From Woeseiaceae bacterium (GTDB lineage: Bacteria > Pseudomonadota > Gammaproteobacteria > Steroidobacterales > Woeseiaceae), in the NCBI GenBank assembly GCA_030066655.1, contig JASJBE010000002.1, positions 1 to 64,000 of the forward strand: a stretch of 64,000 bases of DNA, read 5' to 3'. Shown here one piece after another: positions 29,692-60,857 of this stretch. The number at the start of each line of letters is the position of its first letter. Position 1 is the first letter of the stretch. Both the position numbers and the translations under genes were made by a program. Below the pieces are notes generated by a model. It was not told the DNA's origin. It ran no database searches and saw nothing but the letters and a program-made list of their open reading frames with translations.

Positions 29692-29720
29692 TTGACAGGC
29701 GTCAGCGCACTCAGTAAAGT
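29692..29720 (+). promoter_or_regulatory. promoter of tRNA-Leu
   Basis: TTGACA, 17 bases, TAAAGT, followed by a GC-rich discriminator (TCGCGACCC), the arrangement of strong, stringently controlled stable-RNA promoters. Transcription should begin near 29727, about 35 bases before the tRNA. Confidence 0.75.
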
Positions 29721-29761: not shown

Positions 29762-29848
29762 GCCGAGGTGGCGGAATTGGTAGACGCGCTAGCTTCAGGT
29801 GCTAGTGGGGGTAACCCCGTGGAGGTTCAAGTCCTCTTCTCGGCACCA
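29762..29848 (+). tRNA. tRNA-Leu (anticodon CAG)
   Basis: Complete class II tRNA of 87 nt including an encoded CCA. The acceptor stem GCCGAGG pairs with TCTCGGC (one G-U), the D arm is GCGGAATTGGTAGACGC, and the anticodon stem CTAGC / GCTAG encloses TTCAGGT, giving anticodon CAG (codon CUG). The long variable arm TGGGGGTAACCCCGT and T arm GGAGG-TTCAAGT-CCTCT follow. Its last 27 bases are repeated three more times downstream. Confidence 0.97.
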
Positions 29849-29889
29849 AACAATAACGGCTCCCCGCAAGGGGGGCCGTTTTTGTTTGG
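29846..29889 (+). terminator. rho-independent terminator, array unit 1
   Basis: Twenty nearly perfect base pairs (one T-T mismatch, one T-G) around a GCAA tetraloop, core AACGGC-TCCCC / GGGGGGCCGTT followed by TTTGTTT. The outer stem CCAAAC / GTTTGG includes the CCA of the tRNA. It is placed to end the tRNA-Leu transcript. Confidence 0.9.
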
Positions 29890-30055
29890 GGCCGTGTGTG
29901 GAACTGCCCGCCAGGGTGGCCTATTTGTTTTTGGCGGCTTCCCCGACAGAAAAACTCGTAAACAGATTGTGGGGCTACCCTACGATTGTCAGTGGGCTGT
30001 TTGCGGGGCGGAAGATAGGCATTCTCCCAGCGAGGTTCAAGTCCTCTTCTCGGCA

Positions 30056-30099
30056 CCAAATAATAACGGCTCCCCGCATGGGGGGCCGTTTTTGTTTGG
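30056..30099 (+). terminator. rho-independent terminator, array unit 2
   Basis: Same position in the second unit, with loop GCAT and outer stem CCAAAT / GTTTGG, where the C to T change keeps a T-G pair. U-run TTTTTGTTT. It would act only on transcripts that read through the first terminator. Confidence 0.85.
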
Positions 30100-30265
30100 G
30101 GCCGCGTGTGGAACTGCCCTACAGGGTGGCTTATTAATTTCTGGTAGCTTCCCCGACAGTTCATCTCGTAAACAGATATCAGGGCTACCCTACGATTGTC
30201 AGTAGGCTGCAAACTGGCTGAGAGGTAGGCATTCTCCCAGCGAGGTTCAAGTCCTCTTCTCGGCA

Positions 30266-30308
30266 CCAAACGCCTAAAGGCCCCCGCTGAGGGCCTTTTG
30301 TCGTTTGG
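30266..30308 (+). terminator. rho-independent terminator, array unit 3
   Basis: Core stem AAAGGCCC / GGGCCTTT, different in sequence from units 1 and 2, within a conserved outer stem CCAAACG / CGTTTGG. Replacement of the inner stem by another complementary pair argues that the hairpin itself is maintained. Confidence 0.85.
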
Positions 30309-30539
30309 GGCCCAGTGCGGAACAGCCCGCCAGGGTGGCTAAGTTAACAAAGGTGGCTTCCCCGACAGGTAATCTCGTAGACAGATTTCAGGGCTACTCT
30401 ACTATTGTCAGTGGGCTGCTCGCGGGGCGGAATCTAGTTGTTCTCCCAGCGAGGTTCAAGTCCTCTTCTCGGCACCCCTTCTTTTCGTCCCTTCAGTGGC
30501 TGCGCTCTTGCAACTGAGGCTGTGCGTAAGCTGGGCAGG

Positions 30540-60424: not shown

Positions 60425-60500
60425 GCTCCCTTCGTCTAGTGGTTCAGGACGCCGCCCTCTCACGGCGGTAACACCGGTTCGAATCCGGTAGGGAGTGCCA
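60425..60500 (+). tRNA. tRNA-Glu (anticodon CTC)
   Basis: 76 nt with encoded CCA. The acceptor GCTCCCT pairs with AGGGAGT (first pair G-U). The anticodon stem CCGCC / GGCGG encloses CTCTCAC, giving anticodon CTC (codon GAG), where E. coli has TTC. T arm ACCGG-TTCGAAT-CCGGT. It is followed by a terminator and a tandem repeat. Confidence 0.95.
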
Positions 60501-60509
60501 GATTCGATC

Positions 60510-60535
60510 AAGGGCTCGCTTTTAAGCGGGCCCTT
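60510..60535 (+). terminator. terminator-like hairpin after tRNA-Glu
   Basis: AAGGGCTCGCTT pairs with AAGCGGGCCCTT (one T-G), 10 bases after the tRNA CCA. The following sequence (GTGCTTTGGG) is only weakly U-rich, so termination may be inefficient. Confidence 0.6.
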
Positions 60536-60579
60536 GTGCTTTGGGATCTCCTCACGAGCCCGGATTCGAAACGGTCAGG

Positions 60580-60857
60580 GTTCGACAAAACGCGAAAGCG
60601 TTTTGGGCGCCGAAGGCGGGCCAACGGCCCGAGAACCGGCCAAAGCCGGTTCGAGCCAATCCCCGGTAGCGCACATGCGTCCACCCCCGACGACCGATAG
60701 TACTCCCCACCGTTCGACAAAACGCGAAAGCGTTTTGGGCGCCGAAGGCGGGCCAACGGCCCGAGAACCGGCCAAAGGCGATTCGAGCCAATCCCCGGTA
60801 GCGCGCATCCGGCCACCTCCGACGACCGAAAGTAGCCCCCAGTTCGACAAAGCCGAC
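60580..60857 (+). repeat. 132-bp tandem repeat of consecutive hairpins after tRNA-Glu
   Basis: Two units start at 60580 and 60712, and a short third remnant at 60842. In unit 1 four hairpins follow each other: AAAACGC-GAAA-GCGTTTT, CGCC-GAA-GGCG (overlapping the next by three bases), GGGCC-AAC-GGCCC and AACCGGC-CAAA-GCCGGTT. Unit 2 keeps the first three but has lost the fourth (GGCGATT for GCCGGTT). Each unit also contains GGTTCGA or GATTCGA followed by CCGGTAG, faintly like the tRNA-Glu T arm and acceptor. Open frames here appear to be by-products of the GC-rich repeats. Confidence 0.85.

Follow-up and report, generated by a model that had tools for sequence, protein, structure and literature searches.

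The question raised by this locus is whether the array behind its tRNA-Leu(CAG) gene, which repeats the 3' end of the tRNA, is a conserved element comparable to the rtT repeats of Escherichia coli or a dead local duplication. The E. coli repeats have been known for decades behind one tRNA gene; their units are spaced at 178 bp and carry the 3' end of tRNA-Tyr. We analysed a window of 64,000 nucleotides from a Woeseiaceae bacterium (contig JASJBE010000002.1, positions 1 to 64,000; Table 1).

A first-pass annotation had described three units of approximately 210 bp plus a fragment behind tRNA-Leu, each with the tRNA 3' end. Indeed, direct repeats were found at 29822-30031, 30032-30241 (86% identity to the first), and 30241-30450 (66% to the first), and TRF returned a period of 210, 3.1 copies, and a score of 875. 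The units are 210, 210, and 209 bp long and are followed by a terminal fragment. The 26-nt core GAGGTTCAAGTCCTCTTCTCGGCACC is identical at four sites, 29822, 30032, 30242, and 30451; the unit bodies diverge by 14-34%, yet the tRNA 3' ends are exact. Terminator-like hairpins (10 sites against an expected 1.6) lie 3' of tRNA-Leu and of the first two distal copies, and the stem abutting the CCA is maintained by differing sequences among relatives. The annotation was correct as to exact 3'-end copies, and one correction concerns where the repeat begins: the shared 5' boundary of the repeated tRNA end is probably T54 (TTC..). GCGAGG also stands 5' of a tRNA-Cys copy, although tRNA-Cys itself has GCCGG. 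Homologous units behind other tRNAs indicate that whatever precedes TTC is part of the unit, so that Leu probably shares the additional GAGG by chance.

Coding units were rejected, as unit lengths of 202-220 are mostly not multiples of three. The ORFs over the Leu array, 29768-30205 (+) and 29802-30269 (-), were likewise dismissed as by-products of the tRNA sequence; they read MAELVDALASGASGG.. and MVPRRGLEPRWENAYL.., respectively, and could get annotated as hypothetical proteins.

Table 1. Features of the two tRNA-tail arrays in the window.
Feature	Position	Strand	Remarks
Candidate sigma-70-like promoter, TTGACA-17-TAAAGT, 5' of tRNA-Leu	29692-29720	+	Consensus scan; candidate only
tRNA-Leu(CAG)	29762-29848	+	ARAGORN, Rfam RF00005; T54 at 29826, CCA at 29846-29848
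Unit 1 (repeat-delimited)	29822-30031	+	tRNA 3' end, hairpin, degenerate anti-T-arm at ~29890-29912, body
Long hairpin starting at CCA, terminator-like core	29846-29889	+	Adjoins tRNA-Leu 3' end
Conserved body motifs of unit 1	29914-29983	+	GGGTGGCC 29914-29921, GGCGGCTTCCCCGA 29933-29946, GGGGCTACCCTAC 29971-29983; from models R1/R2 and alignments
Unit 2	30032-30241	+	Starts with first distal tRNA 3'-end copy, 30032-30058; hairpin 30056-30099
Unit 3	30242-30450	+	Starts with second distal copy, 30242-30268; hairpin 30266-30308
Third, terminal distal tRNA 3'-end copy	30451-30476	+	Without hairpin and without the last A of CCA (..CACCCC)
tRNA-Glu(CTC) tail array	60425-60851	+	tRNA 60425-60500, anti-T-arm CCGGATTCGAAACGGT 60560-60575, 132-bp tandem repeat 60580-60851

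To find relatives, we scanned with the array and afterwards searched 396 genomes of the order for pairs of spaced T-arm 3' halves. The same arrangement was detected behind tRNA-Leu in 10 genomes, while the reversed-pattern control yielded 0. Units homologous to those of the window stand behind tRNA-Leu in further Woeseiaceae and in G199, a genome from another family. The check for homologous units in close relatives, proposed with the first-pass annotation, thus spoke for a conserved feature, and the Leu array is not a dead local duplication. Across Woeseiaceae and G199, unit spacing is 202-220 bp, with approximately 206 bases per block. The Leu units align over their full length at fixed spacing, with islands (A/T)GGGTG(C/G)C and GGCTTCCCCGA, followed ~25 nt on by GGGGCTACCCTAC. 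Copy number behind tRNA-Leu differs, with three units in genome G000 and one plus a partial unit in G070.

The array had been placed on tRNA-Leu, where it is indeed present; it is not specific to that tRNA. Using a sequence-only model of the body (R1), we obtained matches behind tRNA-Val, tRNA-Met, and tRNA-Cys, each unit with a copy of the 3' end of the tRNA that it follows. The same body was also found behind Phe, Leu(GAG), and further Cys and Met cases, each ending in its own T54-CCA. Within the family, nine or more kinds of tRNA gene besides Leu are followed by such repeat blocks. In the seven genomes scanned, 24 of 141 tRNA genes have a downstream copy of their own 3' end, nearly all exact, at 154-253 bp with a single exception at 539. 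As a comparable copy appeared in only 3 of 588 swapped-tRNA controls, these copies are well above chance. Distal copies are exact in 27 of 30 units. The window's own genome has copies behind Leu(CAG), Met, Cys, Phe, and Pro(GGG). The body model did not match the Phe and Pro spacers of this genome or the Lys, His, Asn, and Arg spacers elsewhere; the Asn, His, and Lys tRNAs have similar tails with different spacers. A refined body model (R2) matched 23 of the 396 genomes of the order, several weakly, giving a patchy spread. In a class-wide sample of 369, R2 gave weak partial matches, none convincing beyond Woeseiaceae and G199. The unit bodies cluster by tRNA more than by genome and sit on long branches, which suggests that their residence is mostly old and vertical. 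RNAalifold, applied to whole units and bodies, returned no supported structure except the opening hairpin.

Several loci showed additional features. The unit at L225 (tRNA-His of G070) contains, besides the T-arm copy, antisense (GACGACCGGGATC) and sense (GTGATCCCGGTCG) stretches of the 3' side of the tRNA-His anticodon arm. At L033, L034, L175, L192, and L225, a recurrent hairpin comes after the tail copies; its end is a variant of GCGGATTGATCTTTAGT, which makes it a second motif common to these arrays. The tRNA-Pro(GGG) tails of G000 and G070 (L289, L335) have a different spacer rich in inverted repeats, GCGCGAACGCGCGCCCCGAAGGGGTGAACGGC. At L176, a second unit of the tRNA-Cys type follows the first after ~2.2 kb that include genes, an arrangement suggestive of DNA entry into the array. 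Finally, many contigs of G022 start or stop at a tRNA gene (for example, C105:1-72, C110:2-74, C39:3-90, C108:1-88, C37:11-94), as if tRNA-tail variation had broken the assembly.

In most units, the T-arm of the associated tRNA has an antisense counterpart, the anti-T-arm, 40-60 nt past the CCA and directly behind the hairpin. The antisense alignment usually skips T54-T55, as in Phe (GGCGGAATCG--CCACC versus GGCGGAATCGAACCACC), and it also covers the 5' T-stem strand, which is absent from the distal copy. Scoring own versus swapped complementarity with free G-U pairs gave too high a background and was replaced. Ranked against approximately 70 other T-arms, the own T-arm came first for 15 of 36 units; the mean rank fraction of the own tRNA was 0.24 versus 0.5, and 0.15 in a second ranking. 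In a permutation over 10 tRNA types, own arms gave 8.10 pairs versus 6.91, with 0 of 20,000 permutations as good. tRNA-Met shows a compensatory change: the T-loop is CAAGTCC opposite GGACTTG in G114, and CAATTCC opposite GGAATTG in G000 and G070. The closing stem predicted between the anti-T-arm and the distal copy averaged 10.6 pairs for own and 5.6 for swapped combinations, was higher for own in 25 of 30 cases, and was strong in the Met and Cys units of the window's own genome.

The Leu units of the window and of G070 are exceptions, their antisense having decayed; in the window, the match to the own tRNA is no better than that to others, and the predicted closing stem is no better than with swapped tRNAs. 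Based on this decay, the Leu array of the window may be a derived or failing version of the element, its Met and Cys relatives in the same genome appearing intact. As the window Leu copies are exact despite the decayed antisense, the closing stem fails to explain their exactness. Wobble changes showed no strand preference (30 versus 24) that would point to selection at the RNA level.

A second array in the window lies behind tRNA-Glu(CTC). Its near-perfect anti-T-arm scored 28 against the own T-arm; none of 73 other tRNAs and none of 300 shuffles scored as well. No good distal tRNA copy was detected in this array. Its 132-bp repeat has an RtT-like body start, GGTTCGACAAAACGC.., and the array weakly resembles Rfam AaHKsRNA22 (E 0.03). 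Behind tRNA-Arg in G114 (L205) there is a related block, GTTCGACAAAACGCG.

The interpretation in the first-pass annotation was supported in part, and its comparison with E. coli rtT was borne out. The 178-bp units with the tRNA-Tyr 3' end are as described, and both systems have an anti-T-arm; in E. coli rtT this sequence is GGGGAAGGAT. The antisense arm of the K-12 rtT, GGGGAAGGATGAGAAGCTTCGA, scored 22 against its own tRNA, a value equalled by none of 66 other tRNAs and none of 200 shuffles. Moreover, the Rfam model RF00391 draws a stem between the antisense arm and the tRNA-Tyr 3'-end copy, and rttR is annotated as ending at 1287066, the CCA of the first copy, 178 bp away from the tyrV end. 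RF00391 did not match the window array with the E-value limit raised to 10, and gave no match in G000; the anti-T-arm of the window's Leu units has decayed. Elsewhere, RF00391 matched in 50 of 274 gammaproteobacterial genomes, 18 of them over the cut-off. Of 20 RtT loci examined, most follow a Tyr, Gln, or Ser tRNA, and 13 were seen to finish with that tRNA's own 3' end. In the openly accessible literature, rtT RNA was mentioned in passing only; an earlier account of the antisense arm, or of further tRNAs followed by RtT, may exist in subscription journals.

Our reading is that the arrays consist of RtT-like structured RNA units situated in the 3' trailers of tRNAs and forming a second sequence family without similarity to RF00391. 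For the Leu array itself, we give this reading, including transcription, processing, and switching, about an even chance. It builds on the units with their exact copies, conservation, and occurrence behind many tRNAs, on the antisense specific to the own tRNA, and on the architecture of E. coli rtT and the predicted closing stem, all established at the level of sequence. Each unit would be an RNA domain of conserved length comprising the hairpin, the anti-T-arm, the conserved body, and the T54-CCA copy. The anti-T-arm on the 5' side and the tRNA 3'-end copy on the 3' side would form a closing helix, so that the unit would end tRNA-like, in an unpaired CCA. RNA polymerase would occasionally pass the hairpin behind the tRNA, and tRNA 3' processing at each CCA would free the unit RNAs, a step to which the annotated rttR ends in E. 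coli point. The anti-T-arm could pair with either the T-arm of the tRNA itself or the distal copy and might switch between them; the copy may thus keep the antisense off the tRNA, letting the tRNA mature. Several observations argue against RNA units: each unit of the Leu array, like most other units in Woeseiaceae, comes after a strong terminator-like hairpin, the antisense matches a 5' T-stem strand absent from the copy, the distribution is patchy, the bodies have no supported consensus fold, wobble changes lack strand preference, and the Leu antisense is unspecific.

Since copy identity starts at the interruption of the antisense and exact copies outlast decayed antisense, an origin as cassettes inserted at T54 is a serious rival, which we nevertheless consider unlikely. 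Site-specific insertion of small non-coding mobile cassettes would be the work of an integrase, either a trans-acting tyrosine recombinase or one of another kind. Each distal copy would be the displaced tRNA 3' end (an att identity block or a target duplication), each insertion would restore the tRNA, and the anti-T-arm would serve in recombinase binding or in target recognition. Copy identity runs from T54 to CCA, the stretch that T-loop-type integration sites usually have as their identity block. The exactness of the copies (27 of 30), the related bodies behind different tRNAs within one genome, the patchy distribution, and the antisense match that skips T54-T55, exactly where copy identity begins, all fit such insertions. 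However, the ten proteins near the arrays include no integrase or transposase, the grouping of the bodies by tRNA on long branches suggests old residence, and an antisense arm suited to the own tRNA in each unit is hard to derive from one mobile sequence. No syntenic empty site was found; sought via a neighbouring phosphate-transporter gene, it gave no shared synteny. A related and quite doubtful proposal is that the anti-T-arm acts as a guide, pairing with both T-arm strands while leaving T54-T55 unpaired and directing the insertion of the ~182-bp non-coding unit there. If this were true, tRNA genes would gather arrays of nucleic-acid-guided cassettes while remaining intact.

We consider it improbable that the arrays arose neutrally, as functionless tandem duplicates of a tRNA 3' end with its trailer, kept uniform through gene conversion or unequal crossing-over involving the tRNA gene. 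The tandem layout, the copy-number differences between G000 and G070, and the exact copies that the window units keep despite decayed antisense arms speak for this origin, and the repeat number of rtT RNA differs in a Salmonella serovar comparison (PMC2658671). It accounts poorly for motifs that persist and unit lengths that hardly vary between species whose bodies have diverged strongly, for antisense specific to each of many tRNAs, and for the same architecture with an unrelated body in E. coli. We regard it as very improbable that the units are remnants of tandem full-length tRNA duplications with decayed 5' parts. In other Proteobacteria, the same T-arm pattern indeed picked up intact tandem tRNA-Leu genes instead, which are common there and have similar spacing. 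At the array loci, tandem tRNA duplication was rejected: identity always starts at approximately T54, no tRNA body is recognisable before the copies, and the preceding bases are common to different tRNAs.

Among known systems, the arrays resemble the attL/attR duplications of tRNA-targeting tyrosine integrases in that the repeated block extends from the T-loop to the tRNA 3' end. They differ in having ~180 bp of conserved non-coding DNA between copies, a tandem arrangement, an antisense arm to the own tRNA, and no integrase among the ten neighbouring proteins. By analogy, integron attC arrays also comprise short cassettes and a repeated site that folds with an inverted partner around a variable hairpin; unlike them, the present arrays have no coding cassettes, and the site is a tRNA 3' end. 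Such tRNA-tail arrays are easily misread as hypothetical proteins or integration scars. The likeness to RtT lies in tandem units of similar length directly behind the tRNA, ending in its 3' end with CCA (the last without A), and, for the sequence family including the Met and Cys units of this genome, in an anti-T-arm predicted to pair with the tRNA-end copy as a closing stem. Unlike in RtT, the body sequence in Woeseiaceae is unrelated, with no RF00391 match in the window array, a long hairpin abutting the CCA opens each unit, many tRNA species are involved, and copy identity starts from T54 rather than ~57-58. The Leu array is thus built, and probably works, like RtT, but we do not call it a member, because its architecture is RtT-like while its sequence family is not RF00391. 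E. coli rtT in turn looks like one instance of a widespread class, with many tRNA species and at least two unrelated bodies, whose rule is to copy a tRNA 3' end and carry its antisense; with this rule shared, the function of rtT becomes testable.
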